Source of the DNA: Gimesia aquarii
GTDB lineage: Bacteria > Planctomycetota > Planctomycetia > Planctomycetales > Planctomycetaceae
Reading direction: 5' to 3'
DNA length: 64,000 nucleotides
Assembly: GCF_007748175.1 (NCBI RefSeq)
Contig: NZ_CP037422.1
Coordinates: forward strand, 6,464,334-6,528,333
Shown: positions 6,674-12,366 of the stretch, piece after piece
Layout: the number at the start of each line of letters is the position of its first letter
How positions within the stretch are numbered: the stretch's first letter is position 1
Translations under genes and position numbers: made by a program
Notes under the pieces: model-generated
The model's input: only the letters and a program-made list of their open reading frames with translations
Database searches by the model: none
Told to the model about the DNA's origin: nothing

Positions 6674-6706
6674 ACATAGCCTCGGAAAGATTTTCCAAGG
6701 CTATGT
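6674..6706 (+). terminator. Hairpin terminator after the TPR gene
   Basis: The arms ACATAGCCT and AGGCTATGT flank an inner GGAAA/TTTCC pair, giving an almost continuous stem starting five bases after the TPR stop codon. T-rich sequence follows on the plus strand (ATTTCATAATTT). It may also serve the convergent ketosynthase-like gene that ends at 6732. Confidence 0.65.
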
Positions 6707-6731: not shown

Positions 6732-8033
6732 TCAGGCGCCGCAAATCACTGAGGCACTGGCTTGACCACATGTTGTTGTGCTAATTTTTAAGAACAGCTT
6801 ATTATTCGTTGCCAGTGGTTCATTTCGAACGACATTTAATGGACAATCAGGATCCGGTTCTTCGTAATTCAGTGTGGCAGGAATGAGCCCCTGCTTCAAA
6901 GCTACCAGCGAACCACTGGCTTCAACGATTCCACAAGCAGAACCAGAATTTCCAAAATAGCTCTTAAGTGCCGTTACTGGAATTTCTGTTGCTTTGTCAC
7001 CAAAGACATCCTGAATCGCCTGAAACTCCTTCACATCAAAGACAGTGTCACCAAGACCATGAGCATTAATGTGTCCAATATCATCAGGCTGAACTCCAGC
7101 TCTATTTAAAGCAGCTTTAATCGAGTTCGTAATGGCTGTTCTGACATCTGGCTCTCCACTCGGCTTAAGCACACAAGAGGCACCTGTTCCCAAGAGCTCA
7201 CCCCAGATTTTTGCACCACGCTTTTCAGCATGTGATTTTTCTTCAAGCAGCAGTGAACAAGCGGCCTCGCCAACAACCTGACCCGTTCGTCCTTTGTCAA
7301 ACGGTCGAGATCGTTTTGAATACTCGGCAGGCGAATCTGCTAACTGGTCCCAGAACTTAGCATGAATCGATTTTACTTCATGCACACGCGTCCCTGTTAC
7401 ACCTGCAATCATGACGTCAGCCCACCCACGTTCAATGACGCGTTGTGCTTCCCCAAGCACCAGGTTCCCGGACGCTTCAGCCTGAGTGATCGAATTATTA
7501 GGTCCACGAGCATCAATGATAATACCGATGTGGCAGGCTGGCATATTGGGGAGGTACTTCAATAACCAGAGCGGCTCCATCTTAGGTAGCCCGTCAGCAC
7601 CCCAATGATCATATTTGAACTCAGTCCCCTCAGTACTCGCCATACAGGCCCCGTAAAGTACAGACGGTGGGCTCAACATTAAGTTTGCCCCAAATTCGAT
7701 CCCAAAACGCTCACTATCAATCGTGCTTAGATCCAATTCAGAATCTTCCATTGCTAAATTAGCGGAAGCGACACCCATTTGGATCTCACGGCACATCACC
7801 TTGATACTTTTTCGCTGCTTTTTAAGATATTGCTTCTTTGCAGAAGATTCAGTGAAATCTGAAACTTCGCCAACACCAATATCTGGCACTGCCAAGTAAG
7901 AGTACAATTCCGATTTTTTGATACCCGATTTTCCAGACAGCAAACTATCCTGAAAGGCTTCTACTCCAACCCCAATGGGACTGAGGATGCCCATTCCTGT
8001 TATCAGAATTCGTGGTTGTGATTCCGTATTCAT
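6732..8033 (-). CDS. Ketosynthase-like protein lacking the catalytic cysteine
   Basis: This 433-residue protein has the thiolase fold of beta-ketoacyl-ACP synthase II along its length (ITGMGILSPIG at the start, RPFDKGRTGQVVGEAA in the middle). Aligned by eye to the neighbouring FabF, the nucleophile Cys (ACAS) is Glu186 (TQAEAS). The first active-site His is kept (NAHG, His325), but the second (KGHLGH) is Asn362 in KSYFGN. It should therefore not condense acyl chains as FabF does. Cys-less ketosynthases are known as chain-length factors (KS-beta) or decarboxylating KSQ domains, which carry Gln at this place. It follows fabF after 418 bp on the same strand, so a partner or scaffold role with FabF or ACP is possible. 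Function is inferred. Confidence 0.8.
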   Translation of the reverse strand: MNTESQPRILITGMGILSPIGVGVEAFQDSLLSGKSGIKKSELYSYLAVPDIGVGEVSDFTESSAKKQYLKKQRKSIKVMCREIQMGVASANLAMEDSELDLSTIDSERFGIEFGANLMLSPPSVLYGACMASTEGTEFKYDHWGADGLPKMEPLWLLKYLPNMPACHIGIIIDARGPNNSITQAEASGNLVLGEAQRVIERGWADVMIAGVTGTRVHEVKSIHAKFWDQLADSPAEYSKRSRPFDKGRTGQVVGEAACSLLLEEKSHAEKRGAKIWGELLGTGASCVLKPSGEPDVRTAITNSIKAALNRAGVQPDDIGHINAHGLGDTVFDVKEFQAIQDVFGDKATEIPVTALKSYFGNSGSACGIVEASGSLVALKQGLIPATLNYEEPDPDCPLNVVRNEPLATNNKLFLKISTTTCGQASASVICGA

Positions 8034-8451: not shown

Positions 8452-9696
8452 CTATGGTGCGTTTTGAAGAACTAAACACGCATTATGCCCGCCGAATCCA
8501 AAACTATTCTTCAATATTCGATTAATTTTCATCTCACGCGGCTCTTGAGGAATGTAGTCGAGATTACATTTTTCATCAGGTTCATCTAGGTTAACCGTAG
8601 GAGGAGCAGTCTGTTCTTGCAGCGCTTTGACAGCGACAACAAACTCAACCCCACCTGACGCACCTAACAAATGACCTAAATGACCTTTGGTACTGGAAAC
8701 AGGCATCTTTTTTACATGCGCGCCGAAAACAGTATTAATGGCTGCAGTTTCTGCAACATCGCCCAAAGGAGTGCTTGTCCCGTGTGTATTGATGTAGTCG
8801 ATATCTTCGTTATTGATACCAGCATCTCTAATCGCATTCTGCATAGCACGCCCTGCCCCACGACCTTCGGGATCAGGAGCCGTCATATGCGAACCATCAG
8901 CCGACATTCCATAACCTATGACTTCCGCCAGGATGGGAATGCCACGTTTTTTGGCATGTTCGTACTCTTCAAGTACAATAATGCCAGCCCCTTCAGCTAT
9001 CACAAAACCATCTCGATCACGATCAAAAGGACGGCTGGCAGACTGTGGATCATCATTACGAGTCGAAAGCGCATTCATGCGAGCAAAGCCAGAAAGCCCC
9101 ATCGGCGTCACAGCCGCTTCGCTGCCACCCGTTACCATAATATCCGCAACGTCATTTTGAATTAACTTAAATGCATCTCCAATCGCATTTGTCGCAGATG
9201 CACAGGCCGTAGCAACAGCGCTGTTCGGCCCTTTTAATTTATAAGTCACCGAAATATTTCCACTGGCGGCATTGACCATCAGCTTGGGAATCATAAACGG
9301 CGAAACTCGGGTTGGACCCTGGTTATAAAGACGATCGTGCTGATTTTCGATTTCGTTCAGACCACCAATCCCACTCCCTACCAGAACCCCCCTGCGATAG
9401 GGATCACTATCAAAATCTTCCAATTGTGCCTGTCGGTAAGCAATATGAGCGCCAACAAGACCGAATTGTACAAAACGATCAACACGTTTCAGATCTTTCG
9501 CCGTGAGATTAGTATATTCAGTAGCATCAAAATCTTTGACTTCGCCACCGAAGCGCACTTTGTAATCGGAACAATCAAAGCGCTCCACGGGACCAATTCC
9601 ACTTTTACCCGCGCATATTTTGTCCCAAAACTCTGAGACATCTAAACCCAAAGCCGTTACAACAGACACCCCGGTAACGACGACTCTCCTGCGCAT
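8452..9696 (-). CDS. fabF: 3-oxoacyl-[acyl-carrier-protein] synthase II
   Basis: FabF condenses malonyl-ACP with acyl-ACP in the elongation cycle of fatty acid synthesis. The 414-residue protein has full family length. The catalytic triad is intact: Cys165 in ATACAS, His305 in NTHGTST and His342 in KGHLGH, with Lys337. The N-terminal RRVVVTGVSVVTALG is typical. It lies 85 bp downstream of acpP on the same strand and is probably cotranscribed with it. The catalytically degenerate paralogue follows further downstream. Confidence 0.96.
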   Translation of the reverse strand: MRRRVVVTGVSVVTALGLDVSEFWDKICAGKSGIGPVERFDCSDYKVRFGGEVKDFDATEYTNLTAKDLKRVDRFVQFGLVGAHIAYRQAQLEDFDSDPYRRGVLVGSGIGGLNEIENQHDRLYNQGPTRVSPFMIPKLMVNAASGNISVTYKLKGPNSAVATACASATNAIGDAFKLIQNDVADIMVTGGSEAAVTPMGLSGFARMNALSTRNDDPQSASRPFDRDRDGFVIAEGAGIIVLEEYEHAKKRGIPILAEVIGYGMSADGSHMTAPDPEGRGAGRAMQNAIRDAGINNEDIDYINTHGTSTPLGDVAETAAINTVFGAHVKKMPVSSTKGHLGHLLGASGGVEFVVAVKALQEQTAPPTVNLDEPDEKCNLDYIPQEPREMKINRILKNSFGFGGHNACLVLQNAP

Positions 9697-9781
9697 TCGA
9701 GAACACTTCCTACAATGAAAAGACAGGACACTATAAAATCAAAACAACTGGACAAGAGCGCTGAGAAATGATTGCCTCTAA

Positions 9782-10015
9782 TTAACTGGCTTTCTCAGTA
9801 ATATATCCAACAACATCGCCTACTGTTTTAATTTTGTCATAATCATCATCGGGAATCGTGACATCAAACTCGTCTTCAAATTCCATAACGAGTTCAACGA
9901 TGTCTAGTGAGTCAGCCTTTAAGTCATCGATAAATTTACTGTCCAGAGTAATATCTTCTTTTGGATGGCCCAACTGTTCGCTAACGATACCAACCACTTT
10001 TTCTTCGATTGACAC
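9782..10015 (-). CDS. acpP: Acyl carrier protein
   Basis: The 77-residue acidic protein carries growing acyl chains on a 4'-phosphopantetheine arm. The attachment site is Ser36 in the motif DSLD, and the segment [14 protein letters not shown] is typical of bacterial ACPs. It has standard length and is followed directly by fabF. A purine-rich GGAGAAAAAGAG stretch precedes the ATG on the coding strand. The 390 bp separating it from fabD hold no fabG, which often stands there in other bacteria. Confidence 0.97.
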
Positions 10016-10405
10016 TCTTTTTCTCCTTCACCGTCTTAGTGATTCTTAATCTTAAGTATGGCTGGAAACATCTTTACCAAACCAACTTGGATGTATTCGC
10101 TAATAGCTGTAGCGATGATATATCCAGTTTCCCTAATTATGTAAACCTTAAAATGGGACAAGAATTATTAGTCTTGTCTACTCCACCAAAGTTATCTCAT
10201 AATTTGAGCAGAGTTATATTTCCAGTCTGAGAACATACGATTTTAGGTTCTCTTGAATATTCTTTCAGTGATCGTTGTAAGTTGTTGTAGCACAGATCGA
10301 TAGATTAGATCAAGCTCTGAGTCACTGGACAAAATATACGAAATAATTTCTCTGCCCTCTGACATACAGTTCCGCAGTCCAGCCACAGGCAATCGTCCAT
10401 ACGAT
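10016..10405. other. Intergenic region between fabD and acpP
   Basis: 390 bp with no supported gene. fabG commonly sits at this place, but no short-chain dehydrogenase frame or remnant is visible. A weak hairpin (GAGAAC at 10229-10234 with GTTCTC at 10247-10252) is the only structure noticed. acpP probably has its own promoter here. Confidence 0.4.
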
Positions 10406-11314
10406 TCAGGAATCATTCACGGTTTCGCAGGTTATTTTCCGATTGATGCGTTTCATCAATCCCTTGAGGACCTTACCGGGACCGATTTCATAAAACTCAT
10501 CGAAACCATTATCTAGCATCTTACGAATTGAGTCTTCCCACAAAACAGGGCTAATCACTTGTCTTATCAGCAATTCGCGTATTTCGTCTGGATCTTCATG
10601 AATTTCAGCATCCACATTTGAAATAACAGGAATTTCCGGCTTTTTAAGCCCGACTCCTCCCAGCGCCTCCGATAACTGACTATCGGCAGGTTTCATAATC
10701 TCTGTATGAAATGCACCTGCTACTGCCAAAGGAATTGCACGGCCTCCCTCTTGTTCGGCCAACTCGGCTGCCCGTTCACAGGCACTGTTTTCACCAGAAA
10801 GTACAATATTTCCAGGGCACAGGTAATTAGCAACCCAGATCTTTCCAACAGAGGAAGCGGCTTCACAAATTTCAACCACCTTTTCTCGATCGAGAAGCAG
10901 AATACTGACCATTCCAGAAGGATTTGCATCTGCAGCTGCCTGCATCGCTTCACCACGTCGTTGTACAACACGCAATCCATCTTCAAAAGTCATCGCACCA
11001 GCAAAGACTAGTGCTGTATACTCTCCCAAACTTAGACCCGCTGCCATTTCACAAGCTAAGACTTTGTCGGGAGAATCAGCCCGGAGCATTTCTAAAGCCG
11101 CAAGGCTGGTCACAAACAAAGCAGGCTGACTAACAACCGTTGAGTCCAATTCTTCACTGGGACCTTCAAAACAGAGCTTAGCTAAATCGTATTGAAGAAT
11201 TTCAGCGGCACGATTAAAAAGTTCCTGAGCAGCCGGATATTTTTCGACAATCGTCTTGCCCATACCGACATGCTGAGCACCCTGTCCGGGAAACAAAAAA
11301 GCGATTCTGCTCAC
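10406..11314 (-). CDS. fabD: Malonyl-CoA-ACP transacylase
   Basis: FabD moves malonyl from CoA to ACP, supplying the extender unit for fatty acid synthesis. The start contains FPGQGAQ, the nucleophile elbow is GLSLGE with Ser95, and the catalytic His203 lies in GAFHTEIM. At 302 residues it has normal family length. It follows plsX with a 50 bp gap on the same strand, so rpmF-plsX-fabD is a likely transcription unit. Confidence 0.96.
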   Translation of the reverse strand: MSRIAFLFPGQGAQHVGMGKTIVEKYPAAQELFNRAAEILQYDLAKLCFEGPSEELDSTVVSQPALFVTSLAALEMLRADSPDKVLACEMAAGLSLGEYTALVFAGAMTFEDGLRVVQRRGEAMQAAADANPSGMVSILLLDREKVVEICEAASSVGKIWVANYLCPGNIVLSGENSACERAAELAEQEGGRAIPLAVAGAFHTEIMKPADSQLSEALGGVGLKKPEIPVISNVDAEIHEDPDEIRELLIRQVISPVLWEDSIRKMLDNGFDEFYEIGPGKVLKGLMKRINRKITCETVNDS

Positions 11315-11364
11315 TGGTCGATCCCTCTATGATCTATACTGCTAAAAACGTTAAGAATGCCGAG

Positions 11365-12366
11365 TTATGCTACAGGCTTTTGAGCCAGATGCTCGGCAAT
11401 CTGTGAATTGATGCCACGATCCTTAAATGTGGCACTCCCCTTCAAAGCATTCGAAATCGACTGAGCATCACTGGATCCATGGCAAATAATACAAATACCG
11501 TCAATTCCGAGTAAAGGAGCCCCACCTGTTTCGTGGTAACGATATCGCTTCCCCATATCCATAAACGCCCGTTTAGCCTGATCACGTTCTGTATCAAGGC
11601 TACCTAATATCTGCTTTGAAGCCTCTTGCATTAGAAAATCAGCCATTCCTTCACTGACCTTTAATACAACATTACCCACAAAACCTTCACAGATGAGAAC
11701 GTCAGCCTCTCCTTGATAGAGCCCTCGACCTTCAACATTTCCGACGAAATTATCCTTGAGAGGTCCCTCACTCAATAAGCGGTAAGTATCACGGTAAAGA
11801 TCGTTTCCTTTACCATCTTCGCTGCCGATATTGATCAACCCGATCTTAGGAACTTCGACTCCCAGTACTTCGCGCGCATAAATTTCGCCCATAATCGCGT
11901 ATTGATAGAGATGGGATGGACGCGCTGAAGGGTTCGCCCCCACATCCATCAATACGGCATGACCTGCTATCGTAGGCAAAGTGACTGCAATTCCGGGTCG
12001 TTTGACGTCCTTCAAAAACAACCGTGTTTTTAAACCCGAAGCTACCACAGCCCCGGTATTTCCAGCACTGACGACGGCATCCACTTCGCGAGCTGCCATC
12101 ATTTTCCAACAGATCGAAATAGAGCTGTCAGGTTTTTGACGCATTGCGTCGGTGGGCTTTTCTTCCATGCCCACAACCTGAGTCGCATGGGCTACCGACA
12201 AACGATCTCCGCAGTAGCCGGAAGCTTCGATCTGAGAATCGATTTGATCTTGCGGTCCAACAAGCACGACATTCAGTGCAGGATCCGCCTGTAACGCTGC
12301 GATTGCGCCAGTAATATTAGGTTCGGGGGCGAAATCCCCCCCCATTGCATCCAGTGCAATCCGCAT
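11365..12366 (-). CDS. plsX: Phosphate acyltransferase PlsX
   Basis: PlsX converts acyl-ACP to acyl-phosphate, the donor used by PlsY in the first step of phospholipid synthesis. The 333-residue protein begins MRIALDAMGGDFAP, the family signature, and includes DVGANP and CEGFVGNVVLK. GAGGAT upstream of the ATG overlaps the end of rpmF, only six bases away. The rpmF-plsX-fabD order is common in bacteria. Confidence 0.96.
   Translation of the reverse strand: MRIALDAMGGDFAPEPNITGAIAALQADPALNVVLVGPQDQIDSQIEASGYCGDRLSVAHATQVVGMEEKPTDAMRQKPDSSISICWKMMAAREVDAVVSAGNTGAVVASGLKTRLFLKDVKRPGIAVTLPTIAGHAVLMDVGANPSARPSHLYQYAIMGEIYAREVLGVEVPKIGLINIGSEDGKGNDLYRDTYRLLSEGPLKDNFVGNVEGRGLYQGEADVLICEGFVGNVVLKVSEGMADFLMQEASKQILGSLDTERDQAKRAFMDMGKRYRYHETGGAPLLGIDGICIICHGSSDAQSISNALKGSATFKDRGINSQIAEHLAQKPVA

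Follow-up and report, generated by a model that had tools for sequence, protein, structure and literature searches.

A stretch of 64,000 nucleotides of the Gimesia aquarii genome (contig NZ_CP037422.1, positions 6,464,334 to 6,528,333, hereafter the window) carries, at positions 6732-8033, a gene encoding a ketosynthase (KS)-like protein without the catalytic cysteine, here called KSX1, which stands behind the gene for a housekeeping FabF (FabF1). On balance, the comparisons described below suggest that KSX1 is an independently evolved, catalytically dead subunit of a different ketosynthase, FabF2, in the manner of the chain length factors (CLFs) of type II polyketide synthases (PKSs). An earlier note on this DNA, made from the letters alone, had proposed that KSX1 and the adjacent FabF could form a KS pair; the idea of a pair finds support, but phylogeny, gene order in other lineages and patterns of constraint favour FabF2, instead of the neighbouring FabF1, as the probable partner of KSX.

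A Cys-less ketosynthase family common to the class

The KSX1 open reading frame (ORF) lies on the minus strand, starts with ATG and runs over 433 amino acids (aa) with zero internal stops; its product is 29% identical to FabF1 over 415 aligned columns. In this alignment, and as the earlier note had read it, Glu186 stands opposite the catalytic Cys165 of FabF1 (TGT, 9202-9204) and Asn362 opposite His342, while His325 is kept, together with the active-site Lys357. The GFGG gate loop is gone as well (the FabF Phe400 column holds Thr421), as are the Thr residues that follow the first His. With Glu-His-Asn in place of Cys-His-His, Thr in place of the gate Phe400 and a TIGR03150 (FabF/KASII) score of 263.8 bits, below the cut-off of 493.75, the protein falls outside FabF proper. 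The thiolase (ketosynthase) fold is kept: the AlphaFold2 model, based on 51 sequences, has a mean pLDDT of 93.1 and a pTM of 0.91, and its best Foldseek match is Escherichia coli FabF (6olt, TMq 0.89). Two different KS chains (B and C) of the PDB entries 9s5h/9s5i also match the query protein P0001, and are absent among the 50 Foldseek matches listed.

KSX-type matches occur in 119 of 120 genomes of the window's family (E<=1e-60) and in all 198 sampled genomes of the class with a completeness of at least 95% (E<=1e-65), although some of the latter could be relatives that retain Cys, here called KSY, since residue columns were read from fetched loci and not in every one of the 198. Across the phylum, 57 of 294 genomes give a match at E<=1e-70, 52 of them within the class; the five others correspond to four Cys-bearing KSY proteins (family f19) and one KSX (family f40). 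Two sets of KSX1 orthologues were compared, one of 90 rows, which includes the window protein and two partial rows and from which identical sequences and repeat readings of the window gene were dropped, and one of 21 rows (20 genomes of the family plus the window), whose organisms partly overlap those of the first. Cys at the Glu186 column, which would have spoken against the earlier reading, is found in neither: the residue is Glu in 73 and Asp in 17 of the 90 rows, and Glu in 16, Asp in 4 and Gly in 1 of the 21. The Asn362 column holds Asn in 86 and Ser in 3 of the 89 readable rows of the first set (18 and 3 in the second), Lys357 is invariant in the 89 rows readable there, and the His325 column is more variable (His 78, Asn 8, Gln 2, Phe 1 and Cys 1; n=90). 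In addition, Trp156 is constant in both sets (90/90 and 21/21). The combination of Glu/Asp and Asn is therefore confirmed as a property of a class-wide family and not of this copy alone; Glu had been taken for an unusual feature, but an acidic residue turns out to be the family rule. The Gly belongs to the protein at L189:4481-5842 (minus strand), the sole KSX1 row with a non-acidic Cys column, where the His, Lys and Asn are kept.

Many species carry a second copy, KSX2, which in the window genome (G000:C1:5575347-5576615) reads Asp-His-Lys-His; the second His is retained in 9 of 20 KSX2 proteins. In the class outside the window's family, the Cys column is Glu/Asp in 24 of 25 KSX rows from 17 genomes and Ser in one, the KSX2 of L159:9651-10958 (minus strand), which reads Ser-His-Lys-His and thus has both His. 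KSX2 proteins of family f6 (L138, L145 and L147) are without the active-site Lys and read Asp-His-Leu-Asn. KSX1 is under strong purifying selection, the ratio of nonsynonymous to synonymous divergence (omega) within the genus being 0.036-0.083 for those 11 of 15 pairs whose synonymous divergence (dS) is finite; many dS values are above 1 and rough. A mobile origin is not supported: 962 plasmid records match P0001, all at less than 60% identity; the best of the 40 plasmid matches listed reaches about 35%, and these 40 are mostly annotated as FabF, with no planctomycete among them.

FabF2 as the probable partner of KSX

In a tree of 83 rows, which holds 15 chosen KSX loci of the window's family and leaves out one ORF of at least 620 aa and a 240-aa E. 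coli protein that we take to be ApeC, the Cys-less proteins form a single clade (100/100), with the Cys-bearing KSY as sister (97/87) and FabF2 next (81/44). A tree of 32 rows likewise unites KSX, KSY and FabF2 (100/99), and KSX with KSY (98/91), apart from both FabF1 and the KSalpha/CLF proteins of type II PKSs. In approximately unbiased (AU) tests on these 32 rows, of which 12 are a selection of KSX, the grouping of KSX with planctomycete FabF1 is rejected (p-AU 9.7e-07), which rules out KSX1 as a duplicate of the neighbouring FabF1, while the grouping of KSX with CLFs as one clade is borderline (p-AU 0.051) and the best tree separates the two. KSX, KSY and FabF2 have in common an insertion of about 20 aa that follows FabF position 108, and most KSX and KSY a motif like PLWLLK(Y/H)LPNM.

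KSY itself is found in family f19, which belongs to the same phylum and lies outside the class; there (L140-L143), its gene adjoins that of a FabF2-like protein, in the order seen elsewhere for KSX and FabF2, and both proteins have the Cys. Genomes of f5 and f6 encode KSY too, at a locus of its own. The most parsimonious view is that one member of a KS-KS pair lost its active site and became KSX, and the KSY-FabF2 pair of f19 likely shows the pair before this loss.

Gene order outside the window's family also points to FabF2, which 197 of the 198 class genomes contain. In 5/5 fetched f5/f6 genomes, KSX immediately precedes FabF2 on the same strand, and the two are adjacent in 8/8 f5 genomes with both places among the matches listed; four of these eight were available as f5 stretches, and all four show the order FabZ1-ACP2-FabZ2-KSX2-FabF2-hydrolase-GH3 (the labels FabZ1, FabG, ACP2, FabZ2, Hyd and GH3 denote sequence similarity to proteins with observed Pfam domains; ACP, acyl carrier protein). 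The outgroup family f40 (L144) has FabZ1-ACP2-FabZ2-KSX-FabF2, the last genes being separated by 26 and 6 bp; its FabF2 piece, cut by the contig end, finds its best match in the FabF2 of the window genome (44%). A class I/II aminotransferase gene (L144:3451-4554, minus strand) stands directly upstream of this operon. One genome (G083) carries second copies of FabF2 and KSX1 in convergent orientation, 50-60 bp apart, and at L084 a single gene separates KSX1 from a FabF2 upstream of it. The FabF2 of the window genome (G000:C1:416196-417476) is preceded by FabZ, FabG, ACP and FabZ, and the surrounding stretch, outside the window (L121, G000:C1:408000-424000), encodes FabZ, FabG, an ACP of 128 aa, FabZ, FabF2 and an alpha/beta hydrolase, that is, a second set resembling type II fatty acid synthesis (FAS II). 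The FabZ1-FabG-ACP2-FabZ2-FabF2 set is complete in 14 of 20 FabF2 stretches of the family, cut in 1 and absent in 5. The same genome has two further KS matches (L001 and L002, G000:C1:4123427-4129645), each located within a 2711-aa open frame, which are therefore probably one large type I polyketide or polyunsaturated fatty acid-type synthase with two KS domains.

A third line of evidence comes from constraint. Residue F133 of E. coli FabF is presumably part of a helix by which each KS subunit reaches into the acyl pocket of its dimer partner; no text supporting this pocket role was found in the literature searched. As the helix would reach the partner's pocket, a silent KSX is expected to combine a conserved helix with a relaxed pocket, and its partner the reverse. 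Conservation was expressed as percentiles per column, in E. coli numbering, for a protein's own pocket (12 columns) and for helix 130-137, in 21 FabF2, 21 KSX1, 20 KSX2 and 24 FabF1 rows (FabF1 being capped at this number), with 18 KSalpha/CLF pairs of type II PKSs as positive control (16 from Streptomyces and 2 from Pseudonocardia plasmids). Mean pocket/helix percentiles are 79/33 for FabF2, 57/81 for KSX1 and 36/66 for KSX2, to be compared with 72/28 for KSalpha and 45/76 for CLF, and with 76/67 for FabF1, the homodimer control. For the helix, bootstrapping gives ranges of 29-38 (FabF2), 23-39 (KSalpha), 62-74 (FabF1), 77-84 (KSX1), 61-71 (KSX2) and 70-82 (CLF). When 373 sliding segments were scanned, the one at 130 gave the most negative contrast (rank 1) for KSalpha-CLF, FabF2-KSX1 and KSalpha-FabF1, and ranked 3 for FabF2-FabF1, 8 for FabF2-KSX2 and 91 for FabF1-KSX1. 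In FabF2, position 133 falls at the 1st percentile, and in KSX1 and KSX2 it is a constant Trp. By this reciprocal pattern, FabF2 resembles the active half of a heterodimer and FabF1 a homodimer.

Several observations weigh against the assignment to FabF2. Within the window's family, KSX is encoded in 0 of 20 FabF2 stretches (7.5-11 kb), and KSX1, KSX2 and FabF2 occupy three separate loci in the window genome, so that a CLF-like adjacency to a KS is present for KSX2 (f5/f6) and for the KSX of f40 but absent for the KSX1 of the window genome. At half of the assessable named loci, KSX1 is instead syntenic with FabF1: the earlier note had asked whether orthologues keep both the residues and the place next to fabF; Glu/Asp and Asn/Ser are kept nearly throughout, and FabF1 often lies upstream of KSX on the same strand (32 of the 64 named loci that have 2.5 kb or more of upstream sequence). 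The constraint test also gave a weaker contrast, in the same direction, in a first version (with a helix of 130-141, a pocket of 16 columns and a different score; FabF2 78/55, FabF1 76/77, KSX1 61/89 and KSX2 54/76), which predates the positive control and after which the helix was narrowed to 130-137. Correlations over whole profiles leave the two candidates unseparated, being 0.22 for the FabF2-KSX1 and 0.27 for the FabF1-KSX1 difference profile with KSalpha-CLF, and 0.53 for FabF2 and 0.58 for FabF1 with KSalpha. In the scan, segments at 64-70 reach scores similar to that of the helix for FabF2-KSX1, and still lower ones for FabF2-KSX2. Pocket and helix columns were picked on the basis of known KS structure, although the scan covers all common columns. 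Finally, at the ACP-docking site KSX1 has retained a basic patch, which a purely structural subunit would not need.

Comparison with known systems

Like the CLF of a type II PKS, KSX is a Cys-less KS paralogue encoded, in some lineages, beside an active KS and mostly with an ACP, and KSalpha/CLF and FabF2/KSX show the same reciprocal conservation of pocket and crossing helix. The resemblance does not extend to the residue signature: 18 CLFs have Gln (15), Gly (2) or His (1) at the Cys column, followed by Asp (18), Lys (18) and Arg (18), as against Glu/Asp-His-Lys-Asn in KSX1, so that only the loss of Cys and the Lys are shared. KSX also differs in grouping with FabF2 and KSY in the best tree, a joint clade with CLFs being borderline (p-AU 0.051), and, with matches in all 198 sampled genomes, in being core in its class, unlike polyketide CLFs. 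The decarboxylating KSQ domains have Gln at the Cys column and keep both His; KSX1 shares with them the absence of the nucleophile Cys, but has Glu/Asp (90/90) and Asn/Ser (89/89) instead.

An E. coli protein annotated as 'chain length factor', presumably ApeC (the labels ApeO and ApeR are likewise our assumption), measures 240 aa, about half a KS, compared with 433 aa for KSX1. ApeO-ApeC, Iga11-Iga12 and AmcF-AmcG are described as reducing type II heterodimers, FAS-like with a silent partner (PMC8358021; PMC10698177), and by this description, residues not being compared, they resemble the proposed KSX-FabF2 in combining a FAS-like set with a silent subunit. A 2023 survey of KS-CLF pairs lists Planctomycetes among 14 phyla and reports many FAS-FAS pairs outside actinobacteria (PMC10132072).

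The earlier note had regarded such a pair as undescribed, but the residue patterns of two Rhodopirellula baltica proteins were already tabulated in 2009 by Rattray and colleagues. NP_866153 (RB 4527) has Glu163, His298, Lys328 and Asn333, and NP_865682 (RB 3714) has Asp163 at the Cys column; both were grouped with the non-canonical FabF of anaerobic ammonium-oxidizing (anammox) bacteria, and the parts of the report available to us give no function for either (PMC2649909). The Glu-His-Lys-Asn pattern of NP_866153, compared by its published residues and not by alignment, is identical to that of KSX1. The same parts of the report treat two proteins, without a family-wide survey, a partner or a mechanism (PMC2649909), and neither the KSX family as such nor its partner or origin turned up in the open-licence literature searched. 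The anammox proteins themselves are unlike KSX1 at these columns (Val-Asn-Lys-Glu, Phe-Asn-Lys-Glu and Ser-Ser-Asp-Asn; PMC2649909); the non-canonical KS kuste3606, kuste2805 and kuste3348 are each listed with a normal FabF of the respective lipid cluster (PMC4790861).

Proposed function and alternatives

If KSX pairs with FabF2, the latter would act as the active ketosynthase of the second FAS II-like set (FabZ1, FabG, ACP2, FabZ2, FabF2, the alpha/beta hydrolase and, in some families, GH3). FabF2 would contribute Cys-His-His and KSX the opposite half of the acyl tunnel, from which the constant Trp156 would extend to the end of the FabF2 pocket and limit the length or shape of the chain; KSX might also add an ACP docking patch. 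Since many species carry KSX1 and KSX2 beside FabF2, a swap of the silent subunit may give two products, and the position of KSX1 behind acpP-fabF may couple its expression to bulk fatty acid synthesis. A wider scenario, put forward tentatively and with less confidence than the pairing itself, is that the Planctomycetia possess a second acyl pathway beside FAS II, whose condensing enzyme would be an obligate FabF2-KSX heterodimer; this would have arisen independently of polyketide CLFs, from a KS-KS operon still visible as KSY-FabF2 outside the class, through active-site loss in one half, and exchangeable KSX1 and KSX2 would set two chain lengths.

The gene order at the window itself suggests a different partner, namely the adjacent housekeeping FabF1, in which case KSX1 would modulate bulk fatty acid elongation. 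Besides the 32 of 64 judged loci, FabF1 is upstream of KSX1 on the same strand in 8 of 20 matched genomes; fabD, acpP, fabF and KSX follow one another on one strand at L125 and L126 too, 2.5 to 5.5 kb before KSX; the 418-bp gap between fabF and KSX1 has no terminator-like site on the minus strand; and the whole-profile correlations are no worse than for FabF2. We nevertheless consider this pairing unlikely, because pocket and crossing helix of FabF1 are both conserved, as expected of a homodimer, the helix contrast of FabF1-KSX1 is unremarkable (rank 91/373), descent of KSX from FabF1 is rejected by the AU test, and the FabF1 neighbourhood is missing at half of the judged loci. At a similarly low probability, KSX1 could be a homodimeric pseudo-enzyme that docks ACP or acyl-ACP and acts on fatty acid synthesis as a sensor, chaperone or brake. 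ACP docking by E. coli FabF involves Lys65, Arg68 and Lys69 (PMC7138838). Over FabF 58-78, a stretch somewhat longer in KSX1, KSX1 has on average 7.2 Lys+Arg, the most of six groups (FabF2 2.9, FabF1 4.1); the residues at Lys65 and Arg68 are basic in 21/21 KSX1, and the stretch 64-75 is strongly basic and conserved, segments there being on a par with the helix when FabF2 is scanned against KSX. KSX may thus have retained ACP docking, which keeps a sensor or chaperone role alive, and the acidic residue, Lys and Asn are nearly frozen though required by no known chemistry; a homodimer alone, however, leaves the relaxed crossing helix of FabF2 and the KSX-FabF2 gene pairs unexplained.

A chemistry of its own, either KSQ-like decarboxylation of malonyl-ACP, which the earlier note had envisaged, or a Glu/Asp-based hydrolase or acyl transferase activity, appears improbable. 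The acidic nucleophile column (90/90), the invariant Lys357 (89/89 readable rows) and the two His kept by some KSX2, including that of the window genome (the second His in 9 of 20), could be read in its favour. Decarboxylation is disfavoured by the second His being Asn/Ser in 89/89 readable KSX1 and the first being replaced in 12/90, and the gate is gone. Moreover, Glu and Asp interchange, Gly occupies the column in one KSX1 (L189) and Ser in one KSX2 (L159), the f6 members read have no Lys, and Gln, which we take to be the mark of KSQ, is in no KSX1 row. The loss of catalytic residues might also be ascribed to decay or mis-assembly of a FabF copy, an explanation whose probability is negligible given that the ORF is intact, that 90 orthologue rows agree in these residues, that omega is low and that matches occur class-wide. 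The Glu186 codon (GAA) mismatches both Cys codons at all three bases and so cannot be explained by a single base error; the frameshift or assembly error evoked as a possible source of Glu is not borne out, and residue conservation over the 90 rows together with low omega rules out an assembly error or a pseudogene.

Genomic context of KSX1 in the window

KSX1 follows plsX, fabD, acpP and fabF on the same strand, 418 bp behind fabF (Table 1). The hairpin directly downstream of KSX1 is weak evidence for a terminator, because the scanned region holds 5 such sites against 4.6 expected, and promoter-like sites are not clearly above shuffled sequences (13 versus 9.7, standard deviation 3.4). Regulatory RNAs were looked for with Rfam, without a match at gathering scores in the window. 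Neither fabG nor fabH was recognised among the ORFs listed for the 8452-12366 block, no search elsewhere having been made. A search for conserved KSX1 neighbours beyond plsX-fabD-acpP-fabF and a tetratricopeptide repeat (TPR)-nusA-infB block yielded little.

Table 1. Positions in the window of KSX1, its main sites and the neighbouring genes.
Feature	Position	Strand	Basis
KSX1, Cys-less ketosynthase-like protein, 433 aa	6732..8033	-	ORF; Pfam PF00109 + PF02801
Glu186 codon GAA, catalytic Cys column of KSX1	7476..7478	-	alignment with FabF1
His325 codon CAT, first catalytic His column of KSX1	7059..7061	-	alignment with FabF1
Lys357 codon AAG, active-site Lys column of KSX1	6963..6965	-	alignment with FabF1
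Asn362 codon AAT, second catalytic His column of KSX1	6948..6950	-	alignment with FabF1
Segment P154-I169 with constant Trp156 (codon 7566-7568), equivalent to the E. coli FabF F133 segment	7527..7574	-	conservation
Insertion of about 20 aa, KSX1 residues 119-142, common to FabF2 and KSY, absent from FabF1	7608..7679	-	alignment
Basic stretch K71-Q85 at E. coli FabF ACP-docking region 1 (Lys65, Arg68, Lys69)	7779..7823	-	
Terminator-like hairpin directly downstream of KSX1, 15-pair stem	6674..6706	-	hairpin scan
FabF1, housekeeping FabF, intact C-H-K-H and GFGG	8452..9696	-	TIGR03150 613.4 bits (cut-off 493.75)
acpP, acyl carrier protein	9782..10015	-	PF00550
fabD-like malonyl transferase	10406..11314	-	PF00698
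plsX	11365..12366	-	PF02504

Implications

Secondary metabolism is where silent KS subunits have been known so far, as determinants of the chain length of polyketides; here, one is apparently part of the core equipment of a whole class. The Cys-bearing relative in the same operon slot of another lineage would provide a second case for the study of how a KS evolves into a CLF. A testable partner can also be named for the two odd 'FabF' proteins of R. baltica reported in 2009, which are unexplained in the literature searched. More generally, the KSX family directs attention to an as yet uncharacterised lipid pathway that extends across the class.

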